A stretch of DNA of 43,466 nucleotides from a virus: IMG/VR virus record IMGVR_UViG_3300014932_000381, positions 1 to 43,466 of that record; one strand, written 5' to 3'. Below are positions 7,364 to 41,393 of the stretch, one piece after another. The notes below the pieces were generated by a model, which saw only the letters and a program-made list of their open reading frames with translations, did not search any database and was not told the origin of the DNA. Position 1 is the stretch's first letter. Each line of letters opens with the position of its first letter. A program made the position numbers and the translations under genes.

Positions 7364-7694
7364 TTTTTGCCCTTTTTAAATTAAAAATGATAACTTGCCC
7401 GTATTTTCACAGAGGAGCAAGCCTTTCGTTATGTTACAACATCCATCCCTTCTTCTCTAGCCTGGTGATTCTTATACCGGCATTGTTATTTGGCCTGAGA
7501 TTGTTTGTGTTATTGCTTGACAAACAAATGGTTGTTGTCTTTTGTTTTTTAACAAAAGCAAAACTGTTGTTTCTTGCTCATAAAGCTTATTAATTCATCA
7601 GGCAGACTGCTCATTTGTTAAAGCAATAATTATTTCGTATATAAAATTGCTTTAACAGGGCTCTTTTTAATAAAAGCGATAATTGCTTTATAAT
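7364..7694. other. 331-bp gene-free gap between fibres and lysis genes
   Basis: No minus-strand frame with a ribosome site is visible. It holds three inverted repeats: GTTAAAGCAAT/ATTGCTTTAAC (7617-7627 and 7646-7656, 11 bp, 18-base loop), CTTTTGTT/AACAAAAG around 7531-7550, and AAAGC/GCTTT just after the fibre stop (7673-7689), which is followed on the minus strand by a broken T-run and could be a weak terminator. A lysis promoter probably lies here, but I could not find a convincing -35/-10 pair. Confidence 0.4.
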
Positions 7695-10927: not shown

Positions 10928-13900
10928 TTAACTAACTAAAATGTTCCCTGTGAACCCGGTATCGCCAAATAATGTATTTTCTGAAACGCATGTAATAGAA
11001 ATGTAATCTGTGTCTGCTGTTGACGCCACGTAACCTGAAGTACCTGCGGTAGTCGTTCTATTTCCAACTTGAATTTGTTGCCCGTCGTTTTGCAATATGC
11101 TCCAACCAGAACCTAATGGGCCACCTTTTATTCTAAACTCAACCCCTAGTGCGGCTGTTGCTGGCAAAATAAATTGGTTCTGACCTTCGACATCATTACA
11201 AATATACCAAGTGCCTGGCACGAGAACTACCGGGGACGCGGTAGCATTGATCCATGTTTGTGGCGCAGGAATATCGCTTAACAATGCTACTGTACCCGTC
11301 ACATCCTGAAATGTTACATCAACAGTATTGGCAGTGCTTGGGAAGTTTAAATTCGTTTGATGAACACTAGACGTTCCGCTAAAGACTTTAATTGCGGCAC
11401 CTGTTGCTTCAGTTAATAAATTTAAAGACCCTTGCGATTGTGTTTGCAGTGTTAAAGAAACATTTGCATCTGTTCCTGTGACTTGGAAGCGTGGAGCATT
11501 GCCGCCCACTGCATTTTGCATTTTAAAATAGTTGGTCGCGCCTGTTTGATAAGTGAAATCAATAACAGGGGCATTATCCGTGTCGCAAAGTCTTGATGCC
11601 CCAACAATTTGACCGTCTAATGTTAAATTAGTAAATGATGGCGAGCTGCTGGTCGCAATATCTTGTGGCAATGTTAGCGTAAGAACGCCTGTTTGTGCTG
11701 AGCCTGATGTTCCATTTACTAAAACTTGATTCGCCGTACCTTCTAATGATGTGACGCCAGCACCCGTAATGTCACTCAAATAAGCAACTGTACCGCTTGC
11801 ATCTTGAAATGTAATGTCTATCGAATTATTAGTGCTTGGAAAATTAAGATTACTAATATGTTGACCACTTACACCACTAAGTATTTGCAAGCATAAATCA
11901 GACGAATTTGTATAATAACTAAAAATACCCTGACCTTTCGCTTGAAAACCTATCCCAATATCAGTGGTTGTTCCTGCCGCCGCCATTGATAAATCAATAC
12001 CATCTGGAGAATTATAAAATTCCAAATAATTCACCGCGTCTGGTTGGTATGCAAAATTAAGAATAGGTTCGCTAGTATTACTAACAAAGTTAACTACACC
12101 AGACACATCCCCTGACAAATGCAATCCAGTAAACGTAGGTGAGCTTGTCGTTCCAATATCTTGCGGAAGCGATAGGACTACATCACCCGTTTGCGCTGAA
12201 TCAAAAAAACCGTTAACTAAAACTTGATTTTCAGTCCCTGTTGCTGATGAAACAATTGCATCAGTAGTCGCTAACGTACCAGAAAGAGGCCATTGGATAT
12301 CAGTTGAATCTGGAAGAATGGGTATTTTATAAAACACATCATTAACGCGCGTACGCCAATAATTTGCATTTCCTGCAGGATACGCTGAGCCATCGCCTCG
12401 AAAGCCTACCGGATAAGCTGAGGACCCTATAGCGATGCCAGGGCCTTCGTTGGCGCTTGTGTTGCCATTAGACGCACTAGGAAACGCCATGCAGCCAATA
12501 CCAATTGAGCCAGAAATGTTTTCATTATTCCCGCTGACTTGGCCGCCTATCCATGTATTGTTATTACCCGCATTTAAGTCAAAACTTCCTGGGTTGTTAT
12601 TCGCCAAACCAGTAGACGACCCAATCAAAACGTTTGAGCTACCATTGCCTACAGAGCCCAAACCAAACCCACTAGAGAATCCGATTAAAACGTTTTGGCC
12701 GCCATTGTTTTGATAACCTGCAAAAACACCTAACGCCAAGTTGTCGTTAGTATCAGCCGTAGCTAATAAGGCCCCAAAACCAAACGCGGCATTATTTGAG
12801 CCTGAAGTAATACCGGATAATGCGCTAGCACCTACCCCAGTATTATTTGTGCCGGAAACATTTGACGACAATGCTGCCGCACCTAAAGCGGTGTTGGTTG
12901 CATTGATGTCTTTGTAATTACCTTGGCCAATTGTCACGCCATTAACAACAATATCAGCGCCAATCGAATTGCCAATACTTGGAACGCCTGAGCCGTCGGT
13001 AACTAATAAACCATTATTTGCTGTGCTAAGACCTGATACAGCATTGCCGCTTGTTGCATAATAAGTTAATTGATTGGCCAATCCTGAATTGACGATACCT
13101 GACGCATCGGATGCCAAGGCTAATGTGCCTGACGCATCAGGAAGCGTCCATGTTCGGTTGTCGTTTAAGCTTGCATTGATAAGCAAGCCTTCGTATTGCG
13201 CGGCGTTATCTGCCGCAGCAATTTGTAACGCTCCTTTATCAGTTGTTGGTGGTGTAATAGCTAAATAGCCTGCGGTCCCATTAAATCCAGCTGTAATTGT
13301 AGCTGCTTGAATATTTCCCGAGCCACTGACAATTAAACCAAAACCTCCGGAAATGGTTTGGTCTGAATTGGGAGCCAATAAAACGGAGTTGTTTAAATAA
13401 CCATTTTGTTGCCAAGATGGAGCGGCTGATGCGTTTGCGGTTAAAATATAACCTTCAGTGCCATTGGGTAGCAATGAAGGAACACCAGTATTATCTGTTA
13501 CTAAAACACCATTATTTGCAGTGGCTAAACTGCTAATTGTTGTGCCACTTGACGCATAATAAGCCAAATCATTAATGCTTCCTGCGCCTACTGTTCCGGT
13601 GCCTGGAATAATGGCAGGATTTAATAAAATAAATGCTTCATAGTTTGCTGAATAAATTAATGACGCCATTGAGCCGCCAATAATTTCGCCTGCAATTAAA
13701 GCCCCACCACTAATTCCCACGATGGGTATTGCTGGATAACCATTTAATGTTAGCGTGGACGCGCCGGTGTTGGTGTTGTCTGCTTGTAAAATAACAGACA
13801 AGCCGTCTGATATAGCTAATGGCCTAACGGGCAGATTGGCCTCGTACGCGTCTGCTACGCCAATATCGGGAGCAAAATTAAAATAATTTTTTTGAACTAG

Positions 13901-14302
13901 ATAAGCGTTGGCATTAGATATTGATGGGTTGATAAGTTGGAAATTATCATCCGCTGCGGAATAGATAAATAAATAAGCCGCATTGGCTTGAATGTCATCA
14001 ACGATTAATGCCTCTCCTGACGTGGATACAATCGGTTTTGTCGGTAATGCGTTAATTTTTAATGTGGGCGTTGTTGTTAAATTTGTAAACGCCGATACCA
14101 TGTAGATGGGCAATCCATTGGTTAGCGTTGTTACAGCTGGTGATAAGTTAACAACGAACGCATCGTCTGCGCCCAGGCCTGCGGCAAAATTAAATGCGTT
14201 TTGTTGTACTTGAGCAGCCGTTACGCCGCCGCTACCGCCTCCGCCTGGTTTGTAACCTAATGCGGAAGCCCATTTAATAAAATCACCAGCGCCTTCAATC
14301 AT
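10928..14302 (-). CDS. Large tail fibre (1124 aa)
   Basis: Starts at MIEGAGDF, where ATGA overlaps the preceding stop; a GTG four codons earlier is also open. Residues of about 35-125 and 140-228 are a tandem duplication of one domain (FNFA.G.G..DA....L, ending F.L.NP). TANNG(V/L)LVT...GVPS repeats follow. Residues of about 466-616 read as a YadA-head-like beta-roll (NTALGAAAL, NTGVGASAL, NVLIGSSTG). Two GTSSSPSFT-like segments follow, and the C-terminal 90 residues carry the shared GWSILQNDGQQIQVG domain. Likely the main host-recognition fibre. Confidence 0.8.
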   Translation of the reverse strand: MIEGAGDFIKWASALGYKPGGGGSGGVTAAQVQQNAFNFAAGLGADDAFVVNLSPAVTTLTNGLPIYMVSAFTNLTTTPTLKINALPTKPIVSTSGEALIVDDIQANAAYLFIYSAADDNFQLINPSISNANAYLVQKNYFNFAPDIGVADAYEANLPVRPLAISDGLSVILQADNTNTGASTLTLNGYPAIPIVGISGGALIAGEIIGGSMASLIYSANYEAFILLNPAIIPGTGTVGAGSINDLAYYASSGTTISSLATANNGVLVTDNTGVPSLLPNGTEGYILTANASAAPSWQQNGYLNNSVLLAPNSDQTISGGFGLIVSGSGNIQAATITAGFNGTAGYLAITPPTTDKGALQIAAADNAAQYEGLLINASLNDNRTWTLPDASGTLALASDASGIVNSGLANQLTYYATSGNAVSGLSTANNGLLVTDGSGVPSIGNSIGADIVVNGVTIGQGNYKDINATNTALGAAALSSNVSGTNNTGVGASALSGITSGSNNAAFGFGALLATADTNDNLALGVFAGYQNNGGQNVLIGFSSGFGLGSVGNGSSNVLIGSSTGLANNNPGSFDLNAGNNNTWIGGQVSGNNENISGSIGIGCMAFPSASNGNTSANEGPGIAIGSSAYPVGFRGDGSAYPAGNANYWRTRVNDVFYKIPILPDSTDIQWPLSGTLATTDAIVSSATGTENQVLVNGFFDSAQTGDVVLSLPQDIGTTSSPTFTGLHLSGDVSGVVNFVSNTSEPILNFAYQPDAVNYLEFYNSPDGIDLSMAAAGTTTDIGIGFQAKGQGIFSYYTNSSDLCLQILSGVSGQHISNLNFPSTNNSIDITFQDASGTVAYLSDITGAGVTSLEGTANQVLVNGTSGSAQTGVLTLTLPQDIATSSSPSFTNLTLDGQIVGASRLCDTDNAPVIDFTYQTGATNYFKMQNAVGGNAPRFQVTGTDANVSLTLQTQSQGSLNLLTEATGAAIKVFSGTSSVHQTNLNFPSTANTVDVTFQDVTGTVALLSDIPAPQTWINATASPVVLVPGTWYICNDVEGQNQFILPATAALGVEFRIKGGPLGSGWSILQNDGQQIQVGNRTTTAGTSGYVASTADTDYISITCVSENTLFGDTGFTGNILVS

Positions 14303-14481
14303 TGGGCCACCCACTGTGAAATATCGGTTATATTAGTGCCGTCGTTTAAAAAGGTTTGAATGTATGTAATGGAATTATATACAACGGTTATGGTTGAGAT
14401 AATGCTCCCATCCCATTCAAGAGTTTGTTCTAAGGCGTTAATTTGTAATTCGACGCCATTGCTTGCGGTTACCGTGGACAT
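14299..14481 (-). CDS. Small protein upstream of the large fibre (60 aa)
   Basis: Begins MSTVTASNGVELQINALEQ, predicted to be mostly beta strand (STITVVYNSITYIQTF). It is coupled to the large fibre by ATGA overlap. Such small partners may be fibre connectors or chaperones. No family recognised. Confidence 0.55.
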   Translation of the reverse strand: MSTVTASNGVELQINALEQTLEWDGSIISTITVVYNSITYIQTFLNDGTNITDISQWVAQ

Positions 14482-14505: not shown

Positions 14506-14925
14506 CTAAGTTTTTAACATGAATTCTTCGTATATCTTAGCCGCTTCGATTGGATCTGTCACTTTAATGACGGTTTTTTCGATAGGTTTATTTTGAGTGT
14601 CGTCTTCAATTTCTTTTGCTTCAGTCCATCGGCCTTGCGTCTTAAGATAAAAAATTATTGACGGGACATTGTCCTCTAAACATAGTTGAACAAGACGGCT
14701 GGCAATAATTGACGTGGTCCTCATTTTTGCGGTTCTGACGACGTGATCTAACTCTTCGTTATCAGCTTTATACCTGTACCAAGTGTCCTCAGACACACCA
14801 TAATATTCAGCTAATTGCTTATTGCTCATTCCTGCTTTCACTAGACCTTCAACTTCAATCAATATATCCGGTGTTATTTCTAGTTTTTTTTTAGGTTTTG
14901 TTGTTGGAAATTTTCTAACGGCCAT
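14506..14925 (-). CDS. Terminase small subunit-like protein (139 aa)
   Basis: Start at MAVRKFPTTK, because AAGGA lies nine bases upstream; an ATG three codons earlier is too close to it. Residues of about 20-60 form a helix-turn-helix (LVKAGMSNKQLAEYYGVSEDTWYRYK). The following SIIASRLVQLCL and IIFYLKTQGRWTE are typical of small terminase subunits, which recognise the packaging site. It lies more than 23 kb from the large subunit, between fibre genes. A generic HTH regulator is the alternative. A strong hairpin covers its ribosome site. Confidence 0.62.
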   Translation of the reverse strand: MAVRKFPTTKPKKKLEITPDILIEVEGLVKAGMSNKQLAEYYGVSEDTWYRYKADNEELDHVVRTAKMRTTSIIASRLVQLCLEDNVPSIIFYLKTQGRWTEAKEIEDDTQNKPIEKTVIKVTDPIEAAKIYEEFMLKT

Positions 14926-14929
14926 TTTA

Positions 14930-14980
14930 AACATTCCTTTTTGTTTTTTTTTGATTTTAGCATGAACAAAAAGGAATGTT
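14930..14980 (-). promoter_or_regulatory. Hairpin sequestering the small terminase ribosome site
   Basis: A perfect 16-bp inverted repeat (14930-14945 and 14965-14980) with a 19-base loop. On the minus-strand transcript the second arm contains the AAGGA used by the gene starting at 14925. No U-run follows, so this is not an ordinary terminator. The first arm begins 11 bases after the upstream stop codon, close enough for a terminating ribosome to open the stem. Confidence 0.7.
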
Positions 14981-14991
14981 ATTAGTAGCTT

Positions 14992-16080
14992 CTAAACGTA
15001 TTTAATGCATTTCCATAACATTGCTGTTTGTTGAACAATCGTTGAAGCTTGGTTTCCGCCTTCAAAAGCTATATCCAAAGGAAAGTCTAACGTTTTATTT
15101 GTGTTTACTCCTCTTGTTGAAGAGCTAACAGAGCCAAGAACATTATAAAGCCCCACTGTACTTCCTGGGTGTCTATGGCTTGGCATCTCATTAACGGTTA
15201 TTGCATGTGTTGAAGAGCCACCTTTTTGTCCTGGAATCTTTAAAGTGGTTGCGCCAGGAATAGGGATTCCTACCGACCCTCCGGCCCCCGCCGTGACATA
15301 AGCACGAAAATCAGGCAAATTATAAGTTGTTGCTCCATCCCCAGCGCCATAGGTAAAAAATCGAATATTAGCTGAGCCTGTCGCTGCAGCCGCTAAACTT
15401 AATTCAATTGTTGTGTCATTGGTGATCGACGCTATAGTCGTATTAGCTTGTAAATTAACCCCTTCTACTGGCATCCCAACATACATTTGTGTCGTGGCAT
15501 TCGTTAACCCTGTTACTGTCGTTAAACTAATGGTCGTGTTAGCTGATTGAACTTGTGTAATAGCATTAAATAAAGCCGAATACGTTGTGCGGTCTTTTGT
15601 CGTGCCATCACAAACAAAATAAAAATTAGGAACAATAGGTCCGGCAAAATCAATCACAGTACCTACAGGTGTCCATTGTGCCATTCCACTTATCGCGACC
15701 CAATTTAAATCAGCACCAGGAACGGATGTGTTTGCATCAATTTGACTTTCCCAAATCCGAACGCCGCTGCCTGTGTCATAAGCAACATAAGCATAAATGG
15801 GATAACTAGCAGGACCGCCATCGACAACAGACACCCACAATGGAAAGCCTTGCGTCTGTAATTGCTTTAACGCATAAGTAATATCAAACATTAATTGATT
15901 CATTTGCAATCGCGGAACGGGGAAAGAACCTATGGTTGCATTAGGCAAAGAATATGGGGTTGTCCATCCGTATTGATAATTTACAGATGAAGAACCTGTA
16001 CCCGTTTCTGGAATAGCTGTTGCATCGCCCAAAACACCAAAAGGATATAAAAAATAGTTGTTCGGTGAAGGTGCAGTCAT
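14992..16080 (-). CDS. Tail collar-domain fibre protein (362 aa)
   Basis: N-terminal 130 residues are a baseplate-attachment region (LQMNQLMFDITYALKQLQTQG). Residues of about 137-262 are a phage tail-collar domain: TPVGTVIDFAG, FVCDGTTKDRTTYSALFNAI, then YGAGDGATTYNLPDFR. The collar is split by a module at about residues 174-243 (VTGL, GMPVEGVNLQANTTIASI, LSLAAAATGSANI). The C-terminus has the collar-typical HAITVNEMPSHRHPG. Stop codon lies 11 bases before the hairpin of the next gene. Confidence 0.82.
   Translation of the reverse strand: MTAPSPNNYFLYPFGVLGDATAIPETGTGSSSVNYQYGWTTPYSLPNATIGSFPVPRLQMNQLMFDITYALKQLQTQGFPLWVSVVDGGPASYPIYAYVAYDTGSGVRIWESQIDANTSVPGADLNWVAISGMAQWTPVGTVIDFAGPIVPNFYFVCDGTTKDRTTYSALFNAITQVQSANTTISLTTVTGLTNATTQMYVGMPVEGVNLQANTTIASITNDTTIELSLAAAATGSANIRFFTYGAGDGATTYNLPDFRAYVTAGAGGSVGIPIPGATTLKIPGQKGGSSTHAITVNEMPSHRHPGSTVGLYNVLGSVSSSTRGVNTNKTLDFPLDIAFEGGNQASTIVQQTAMLWKCIKYV
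15352..15561 (-). other. Inserted beta module in the collar protein
   Basis: Encodes residues 174-243, between the two conserved halves of the collar domain (FNAI and YGAGDG). The pattern V-T-G-L, G-M-x-V, T-T-I-x-S-I, L-S-x-A-A-x-A-T-G-S-A matches modules in the sheath and DUF2612 genes. Confidence 0.65.
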
Positions 16081-32339: not shown

Positions 32340-32414
32340 TCGTCCTTAATTAATTATTTATATCAAACAAACAGTAATATTAACGCGATGAATGCTTGAT
32401 ATAAAACGCTAAAA

Positions 32415-33138: not shown

Positions 33139-33429
33139 ATGTTTCAAGGAATTAATGATAATTATATGTTTTGGAATGATGCAACAGAAGTCTTGCCAGG
33201 CAATAAGTTCGGGGATAATGATCATGAATTTTTATTAAGAATATCATTTGAGGATGATTTGCAGTTGCCTATTTATATTATGGCGTTTTTAATTGGCGGG
33301 ACATTTGTCCCCTCGGTTTATTGTTTGTGCTGTGATGATTGTAAGTGTGATTCGTCAGAAAAGGTATTAGCCTTGGATCTAGCCACGATCACTCATTGGG
33401 CTTTAATACGTCATCGAAATGACGATTAA
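33139..33429 (+). CDS. Hypothetical protein with cysteine cluster (96 aa)
   Basis: Starts MFQGINDNYMFWNDATEVLP with AAAAGGA upstream. A hydrophobic middle (PIYIMAFLIGGTFVPSVY) precedes C-x-CC-x2-C-x-C (CLCCDDCKC), a compact possible metal site. The leader before it repeats the TTTTAAATTTAAAAGGA found before the next gene. No family recognised. Confidence 0.6.
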   Translation: MFQGINDNYMFWNDATEVLPGNKFGDNDHEFLLRISFEDDLQLPIYIMAFLIGGTFVPSVYCLCCDDCKCDSSEKVLALDLATITHWALIRHRNDD

Positions 33430-37467: not shown

Positions 37468-38058
37468 ATGACCTCTGAAAAATCAAACCCCATTTATTTT
37501 CAAGTGCCTAAATTAATGACTGATCACCCGAAAATAACTGGCGATCATATCTACATATTTATGCCGCTTTATGATCATCTTCGCCGGTCTCCTTGGGACA
37601 AAATCGGTTATAACAAAACCAATGAATTTTTGCATGAATTTTCAAAAATAGGTTTGCGTCAAGTTAAAACAAAATTAAATCAATTAGAAGAATGGGGATT
37701 TTTAATAAGAAAAGGGATGGGCCATAACCGGAAGTTCTTTATTGGCAAAATATTTAACAACAGTGCGGAATCGGAACCTGTTTTAAACTTGGACAACAGG
37801 GCGGGATCGGAACTAGAACAGGGCGAAATCGGAACCAGTACAGGGTCAAAACGGAACTACATAATTAAGAATGTTATCAAGAATATTAATAAGAAAGAGA
37901 TTGCTCGCGCAAAATCAAAAACAAAAACCCCAACCCCCGAAGAGCATGAGTTAATGCAAAATTATAAATACGGATTAGAACACCCTGAGTTTTTGTTAAA
38001 ACCCGATTTATTGGAGCATGCAAAAAAATTGTATGACAAATTCAACCCTAAAGATTAA
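37468..38058 (+). CDS. Winged-helix DNA-binding protein (196 aa)
   Basis: Starts [20 protein letters not shown]. Residues of about 20-95 form a winged helix: [40 protein letters not shown], then a wing [11 protein letters not shown]. Middle is acidic and disordered, and a basic helix ([18 protein letters not shown]) precedes the C-terminal helices. Layout resembles the phage's own replication protein N-terminus, so a second initiator-like or regulatory protein is likely. Overlaps the terminase 3' end by 11 bases. Confidence 0.7.
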
Positions 38059-39670
38059 ATATGCTTCGTCGTCCGGGTTGAATAGGGGCAAAACAAATAA
38101 CTAAACTATCGGCCAAATTCGGGGATTTGCAACCCGGTGGTTGTTTGTCTACCAGTATTTTACCGTTGTTATTTTGTGAGTAAGTAGGTTGTGACAATTC
38201 GACTAACAGTTTTTTGTAGTCTGGAATTGCGCTTGATATTGAAATAATGTCGCCTGGGTCTACGGGGAGTTGCTCTACAATTGCTCGGTATGTTAATTGA
38301 AATCTGCGTCTTAGCGACCACCAGGCTTGCGCTTTAGCGTTAGCAAAAAAGTCTTCGTTTGTTCTGCCTGGTTCGCGATCTTTAACCTCAGCCGACGATT
38401 GAAACGGATTACCTTCGGGGTCAACAACTGCGCCTGAACCACGGAACGGATTAAAATTGATTTTAGATAATCCAGCAGCCATACGGTCGCGATTAATGAC
38501 GCGAGCATCACCCCTAACGCCAGCCCCAAGACCATCAGCGTCATAATCAGCAACAGGTAAATGCAGCTCATCACAAAGCCTAAAGGCCCTTTCAACCGTA
38601 TCGTATATATCACTGCCTTTCCCGCTCCATGATTCCAAATGTTCTACCAGTATACCATGGCGAGCGCATAGTGAGTTTTTATCGATACCCTCGTCTGCTA
38701 TGTCTATCCCGGCCTTTCGAATGCCTGTAGGCTTTATATTAAGCTTTAAATGGGCATCTACAGCCGACTGCACCCAAACCGATGGAATTAATATACCTTC
38801 GACTGATGCTGAGTAATCTAAATCTATTTCTTGCGCTATGACTACGGGATCATCAATGTCATGACACATCTTTTCATACCATGCCTGGTCTTTTCTTAAA
38901 TCGTCTGTCCAGTGAAAGGTAAATACATTTATTTTCCCGCCGAATCGTTTTCTTGCAAAGCTATTATTCATGCCTCGAGGTGTCGATACATCAATCCTGC
39001 AATTGGTTGTTTGTGACAAAGACGCGTCCAAAAGCTCAGCTCGAGGGATAAAGGCGCTTTCATCGATGAAGGTTATCGAGGTCCTTGCTCCGCGTCCTAT
39101 GCCATCTCCTGACTCGCCTGTAATAACAGAACCGCTGTTTGGAAATTCAATGCGCATGTAAGGGCTATGTTTTTTTTCGTCCCAATCGCCGCGAAATTCT
39201 TTGGGTAATCGCGATATAAATTGTCTTGCTTTCCAGAGTAGTGATTTTGGATCGCCTTTCTTATCCACGTATTCTTCTTTTCTTGAGCCAAATCCTATAT
39301 TCATGCCTTCGTAAAACAAACAAAGCGTTGATGCAACGCTGACCGTAAGCCAAGACAACCCACATTCACGTGATTTTTCTACAAGTCCAGGCTCTCTGTT
39401 TTTCCAACGAGCCAATAACCAATGAACCCATTCTTCTTGTTTTGGAAGCAACAAAAAAGGCATCAATGTAGGAAGCCCACGCTCTACGTTCCTAGGGTCA
39501 CTGGTCACACCCCAGTCAATAATAAATTGGGCGGGGTCGTTTCGATAAAACAATCTAAGCGCATCCCAAACATCAGGATTTTTCTTTAATCGCAAATAAC
39601 GCTCCATGCGCCATTCCCACACCTTGTTGTAATCAGGGTTTTTATAATCAAAATCAAATGGTAGAGGCAT
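38048..39670 (-). CDS. terL: Terminase large subunit (540 aa)
   Basis: Start at [20 protein letters not shown] with AAGG nine bases upstream; a GTG at 39706 is open but lacks a ribosome site. ATPase: Walker A-like EKSRECGLS (98-106) and Walker B ITFIDESA (199-206). Nuclease acids: GIDIADEG (D323), YDADGLGAG (D377) and NLADSL near the end. It is the packaging motor. First gene of the late block, 24 kb from the small subunit candidate. Confidence 0.88.
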
Positions 39671-39712
39671 AACAAATACCTTATTAACAACATCACCACT
39701 TTCCACAAAATC

Positions 39713-41353: not shown

Positions 41354-41393
41354 TTGAGGCCTTGAACTCCCTGATATCCAAGGCCTCAATTTT
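41354..41393 (+). terminator. Strong intrinsic terminator without an upstream plus-strand gene
   Basis: Perfect 11-bp inverted repeat TTGAGGCCTTG/CAAGGCCTCAA (41354-41364, 41379-41389), 14-base loop, then TTTT on the plus strand. On the minus strand it could also stop the replication transcript, though the U-run is absent there. Confidence 0.65.

Follow-up and report, generated by a model that had tools for sequence, protein, structure and literature searches.

Results

Gene context of the intergenic hairpin

The stretch of DNA analysed here (the window), a virus record of 43,466 bases, comes from a contractile-tailed phage, with its genes for sheath, baseplate, capsid, portal and head protease on the minus strand. 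At the locus of interest, the sense-strand order is the collar gene, 66 nt, a small-terminase-like gene, a 60-aa gene and a 1128-aa tail protein (Table 1), and the 66-nt gap is mostly taken up by a perfect inverted repeat. The upstream genes are co-directional and the gap is without a called terminator, which bears on whether longer transcripts enter the terminase-like gene.

The product of the gene downstream of the gap matched PHROG 309 with an E value of 4e-17, as did 10 of its 11 homologues, and its identification as a small terminase in the preliminary description is supported by this family match. With tblastn, eight phage records were found at 25-32% identity, in six of which a small terminase is annotated under the match. 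In the fold search, the best match was the Bacillus phage protein 2ao9, at an E value of 0.026 that is weak and obtained with a predicted fold of moderate quality (model pLDDT 74); Sf6 gp1 appeared only at an E value of 0.75 or worse, with TM values of 0.36-0.39. We refer to the gene as terminase-like. The program-called start of its reading frame, the ATG at 14934, sits within the stem of the hairpin and leaves no space for a Shine-Dalgarno sequence. The ATG at 14925, which is located 9 nt past the AAGGA and 4 nt beyond the stem, is the likely start. The small- and large-terminase-like genes are separated by ~23 kb on the map, and in the relatives examined at this locus the small-terminase-like gene lies just upstream of the long tail-protein gene.

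Table 1. Features at and around the hairpin (window positions unless another record is named)
Feature	Position	Strand	Basis or remark
Tail collar domain protein gene, 362 aa	14992..16080	minus	upstream of hairpin
Collar 3' end stretch (codons QQTAM)	15015..15032	minus	16/18 match to inverse of arm 1
Perfect 16-bp hairpin, 19-nt A-rich loop	14930..14980	minus	inverted-repeat scan, RNA fold, shuffles
Arm 1	14980-14965	minus	5' arm of the sense RNA; begins 11 nt past collar stop codon
Loop	14964-14946	minus	19 nt; sequence
Arm 2	14945-14930	minus	3' arm; contains Shine-Dalgarno sequence
AAGGA, Shine-Dalgarno sequence of terminase-like gene	14935..14939	minus	sequence; opening cost computed
-35-like ATAACA	14977..14982	minus	weak (4/6); 17 nt upstream of -10; overlaps arm 1
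Extended -10, promoter-like, TGCTAAAAT	14954..14962	minus	prediction; in hairpin loop
Putative transcription start region, ~14947	14945..14948	minus	placed from the -10 position; RNA without arm 1
Small-terminase-like gene, 139 aa, HTH	14506..14925	minus	PHROG 309, tblastn, fold search
60-aa gene	14299..14481	minus	between terminase-like gene and long tail protein; 95% identical in close relative
Long tail protein gene, 1128 aa	10928..14314	minus	downstream
Large terminase gene	38048..39706	minus	nuclease domain like Gene 2 protein chains
ParB-like gene of nearest relative	L003 3411-3968		between collar gene and terS

Geometry and rarity of the hairpin

The structural elements given in the preliminary description were all recovered. 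The arms are complementary at 16 of 16 pairs (100%), with the AAGGA lying in arm 2; the sequence after the stem has no U-run; and the first arm is found 11 nt past the upstream stop, the collar stop codon ending at 14992 and the stem running from 14980. Four of the 16 pairs are G-C. This is the longest perfect inverted repeat of the window when loops of up to 40 nt are considered, and it was matched in none of 20 whole-window dinucleotide shuffles, where the longest arm was 14. Local 101-nt shuffles gave a 16-pair arm in 0/3000 cases and a 14-pair arm in 2/3000. The 51-nt hairpin of the sense (minus-strand) RNA is predicted to fold at -16.3 kcal/mol, with a z value of -6.4.

A formal match to an intrinsic terminator was rejected on account of the missing U-run, the stem being not G+C-rich, and the terminator scan, which made no call. 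The next longest perfect inverted repeats of the window, of 12 bp at 7616-7657 and 11 bp at 41354-41389, are both intergenic; the repeat at 7616-7657 is situated past the last of the late tail genes, and its sense strand is without a U-run.

A search of Rfam 15 returned 15 matches, all of them below the gathering score and chance-like. An exact search of viral contigs for the arms found 70 stretches with one match apiece and none with both arms, no other pair of arm copies was found in the window, and a phage DNA search with an 801-nt query gave no match.

Predicted masking of the ribosome site

By calculation, the hairpin likely masks the ribosome site of the terminase-like gene, as had been claimed. 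When both arms are present and no constraint is imposed, the cost of opening the AAGGA ranges from 12.5 kcal/mol (transcript from 15100) to 14.0 kcal/mol (transcript from 14995). Among 42 window genes treated alike, the terminase-like gene was the most closed (12.7 kcal/mol vs a mean of 3.2). For comparison, the opening cost in relatives was 0.46-7.4 kcal/mol over 32 distinct terS junctions and 1.8-4.6 kcal/mol at 11 terS loci, most of which belong to the 32-junction set. A stretch of the collar gene, 15077-15090, is 86% complementary over 14 nt to the masked arm and could serve as a backup lid.

Candidate promoter within the hairpin loop

The loop sequence is CATGCTAAAATC, followed by an A run, and it carries a predicted extended -10 site. 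The promoter score was computed with an E. coli promoter matrix that may not fit the host. On this scale, the loop site scored 9.42 and ranked 28th of the 5460 scored sites of the window; with the same E. coli-derived score it ranked 4th of 42 among gene-upstream regions. In local 100-nt shuffles, a score at least equal to that of the loop site was reached at any position in 138/5000 cases, and at one of the 17 positions from which a transcript would lose arm 1 but retain the AAGGA in 36/5000. In RNAs starting at 14950-14945, the predicted cost of opening the AAGGA is 0.7-1.5 kcal/mol.

Comparison with relatives

Of 36 terS loci found, 35 were used, L141 being omitted as a second copy of L140, and the removal of three identical junctions left 32. 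At none of these 32 junctions did the region from 200 nt before to 30 nt past the terS start contain a perfect repeat of at least 11 pairs, and 10 pairs was the maximum observed. Judged by sequence, the hairpin is not conserved and was found in no other phage examined. In L136, a locus beyond the 32, a hairpin of 15 bp and a 4-nt loop is followed by a T-rich tail that ends 98 nt ahead of terS; this structure resembles an ordinary terminator located off the ribosome site.

The nearest relative, G001, shares 92% identity with the window in the baseplate protein and 76-78% in terS. L003 and L004, two contigs that represent the only close relatives, have a 185-aa ParB-like gene between the collar gene and terS and lack the hairpin; the stop codon of this ParB-like gene overlaps the terS start in the nearest relative. 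A search of the window for the ParB-like gene, run without a positive control, did not find it. In L130, L134 and L135, a gene with an N-terminus similar to that of the ParB-like one sits upstream of terS. L127 and L128 have a collar-terS spacing of 8 nt and no hairpin, and in L131 and L132 terS follows opposite-strand ORFs, with a TATAAT that begins 25 nt before the ATG. L138 carries, at 13273-13320 (G001 33273-33320), a perfect hairpin of 21 bp and a 6-nt loop that begins at the stop codon of a 68-aa gene; at the corresponding window junction, ~32357-32405, the hairpin is another one and imperfect. Searching genome contigs with the terS alignment yielded nothing, and searching them with the baseplate protein yielded three distant loci.

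When 31 junctions were divided into coupled ones, where a gene of 150 aa or more ends at the terS start, and uncoupled ones, a rule chosen after the table had been seen, a promoter-like score of at least 9 was found in 6/15 uncoupled vs 1/16 coupled junctions (one-sided p 0.03). Merging three look-alike junctions gave 4/13 vs 1/16 (p 0.11). The high promoter score of L152 lies inside a collar gene and is without a counterpart in its near twin L150. The terS genes of the relatives appear, from their sequences, either to be coupled to the stop codon of the upstream neighbour or to have their own promoter, and the window belongs with the uncoupled class. The contrast in promoter scores is suggestive only, in favour of an own promoter.

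Discussion

The most likely reading of the hairpin, to which we assign a probability of about 0.42, is that of a read-through-proof ribosome site with an internal promoter. Transcripts reading through from the tail genes would hold both arms and fold, and according to the calculated opening costs no terminase-like protein would be made from them. From a sigma70-type extended -10 promoter in the loop, a separate transcript would begin at ~14947, and in this RNA, which would not include arm 1, the AAGGA would be open. As the predicted loop transcript would lack arm 1 and the read-through RNA would be folded, the output of the terminase-like gene would track its own promoter rather than the tail operon. 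The preliminary description had counted a promoter starting inside the loop against its own proposal, and a candidate for such a promoter is present in the extended -10 site. If real, this predicted promoter would turn the proposed timer into a block on read-through messages; it would not abolish a role for it.

Devices of this kind are known from T4, where gene e and I-TevI have a ribosome-site hairpin on long upstream transcripts, while the DNA of the 5' side carries a promoter whose RNA is unable to form this helix; soc and 49 are named beside them in the relevant passages of the two sources (PMC3014915, PMC2988022). The present locus resembles e and I-TevI, as described in those passages, in that the Shine-Dalgarno sequence lies in a helix of upstream transcripts and a candidate promoter would yield an RNA without the 5' arm. 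By calculation, the Shine-Dalgarno sequence is held in a stable helix of upstream-initiated RNA, as in the T4 gene e kind. In contrast to T4, the candidate here is a sigma70-like promoter serving a terminase-like gene, and the arrangement is predicted from the sequence. The T4 late-promoter subtype was not assigned, as TATAAATA is absent from the sequence 14982-14930. The T4 e hairpin, according to the same passages, recurs in close relatives, whereas that of the window does not.

The transposase of IS10 is protected from external promoters in a similar manner, the read-through RNA folding over the ribosome site and the RNA from its own promoter not doing so. Unlike this phage gene, IS10 is a mobile element with known transcripts.

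SPP1 terS has promoter and ribosome site packed together, with a possible DNA signal at that place, as in the window; the passages concerned (PMC6316719) describe pacL and pacR sites and no RNA hairpin, whereas a pac at the present locus is conjectural. Among titles and abstract openings, our literature search retrieved no paper on a terS ribosome-site hairpin with an internal promoter.

With regard to the timer of the preliminary description, in which a ribosome completing the collar gene melts the stem and the terminase gene is then translated, the adjacent genes, the sealed ribosome site and the position of the stem near the stop codon are all in its favour. A ribosome with a stop codon in its A site covers ~10 nt beyond it, as judged from toeprint geometry. 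By this distance, the footprint of the ribosome at the collar stop would end at ~14982, leaving about 1 nt before the stem, and in the calculation the AAGGA stays shut: with the footprint forced to be unpaired, opening the AAGGA still costs 10.8-12.4 kcal/mol, and about seven bases of the stem need to be covered before the cost drops to 4.6 kcal/mol. Moreover, several relatives couple the genes through overlapping or adjoining stop and start codons, which the 66-nt gap abolishes here. As the footprint geometry fails and the arrangement is not conserved, a ribosome-driven timer linking tail assembly to packaging is not supported, and we regard it as very improbable.

Still more improbable is a three-strand kinetic switch, in which the nascent collar end, 15032-15015, would pair with arm 1 and briefly free the terminase ribosome site, until a translating ribosome removes this partner and arm 1 closes on arm 2. 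At equilibrium, arm 1 is paired with arm 2 at 0.998 vs ~2e-6 with the collar end, so that such a switch could act only during transcription. An 86-nt piece with the collar stretch and arm 1 folds at -12 kcal/mol, and as 54/200 shuffles fold as well, this is not better than expected from them. If the switch were true, translation of the tail gene would shut the packaging gene rather than open it.

The hairpin may instead serve the 3' end of the tail transcript, by stabilising the end of the collar mRNA or as a weak terminator or processing site, the hiding of the AAGGA being a side effect. The stem begins 11 nt past the stop codon, each of the three longest perfect repeats in the window lies between genes, and in G001 hairpins of 13 and 21 bp occur 9 nt past a stop and right at a stop, respectively, all of which is consistent with this explanation. 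We nevertheless consider it unlikely: a U-run is absent on both strands, the stem was not called by the terminator scan, a 19-nt loop and 4/16 G-C pairs are poor for a terminator, and the next gene would be silenced unless it has another start.

A quite unlikely origin is a neutral or recent copying error, in which the arms arose as inverted copies of the collar end through template switching, perhaps when the ParB-like gene was lost, and have no selected role. The hairpin is seen in this phage only, and the relative has the ParB-like gene at the same place. Extended by two bases, arm 1 agrees with the inverse of the collar end at 16/18 positions, a match equalled by 1/20000 shuffled 18-mers within the last 300 nt, albeit one noticed after the fact; the relative retains the protein motif VQQTAM at the collar end. 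It is thus possible that the collar gene's end was copied in inverted form to give the arms, but a useless hairpin of more than 12 kcal/mol on the ribosome site of a packaging gene should be selected against, barring another transcript.

The palindrome would be of use as DNA if it were an operator or packaging site for the small-terminase-like HTH protein, lying over promoter and ribosome site like the pac of SPP1, which in the passages describing it covers the PL1 and PL2 promoters, the ribosome binding site and the start of gene 1 (PMC6316719). The window protein does have an HTH. Nevertheless, the G001 protein is 76-78% identical and has nearly the same HTH, yet no copy of an arm with up to two mismatches occurs in its 41,491 bases, and the window has no second pair of arm copies. 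As a pac site or operator bound by TerS, the site would be expected in G001, where the HTH is kept but the site is not, and we hold this explanation to be quite unlikely too.

The masking itself could be incidental, since other long perfect intergenic hairpins occur here and in a relative with no ribosome site seen to be masked. Overall, the hairpin looks like an ordinary, unconserved instance of a known masking device. If the internal promoter is not real, what is left is one lone unconserved hairpin. If it is real, the design of T4 gene e would extend to an unrelated phage with a contractile tail, there serving a packaging gene with a sigma70-like promoter, and the read-through-proof ribosome site would represent a third wiring of terS, besides the coupling to a neighbour and the own promoter of the relatives.
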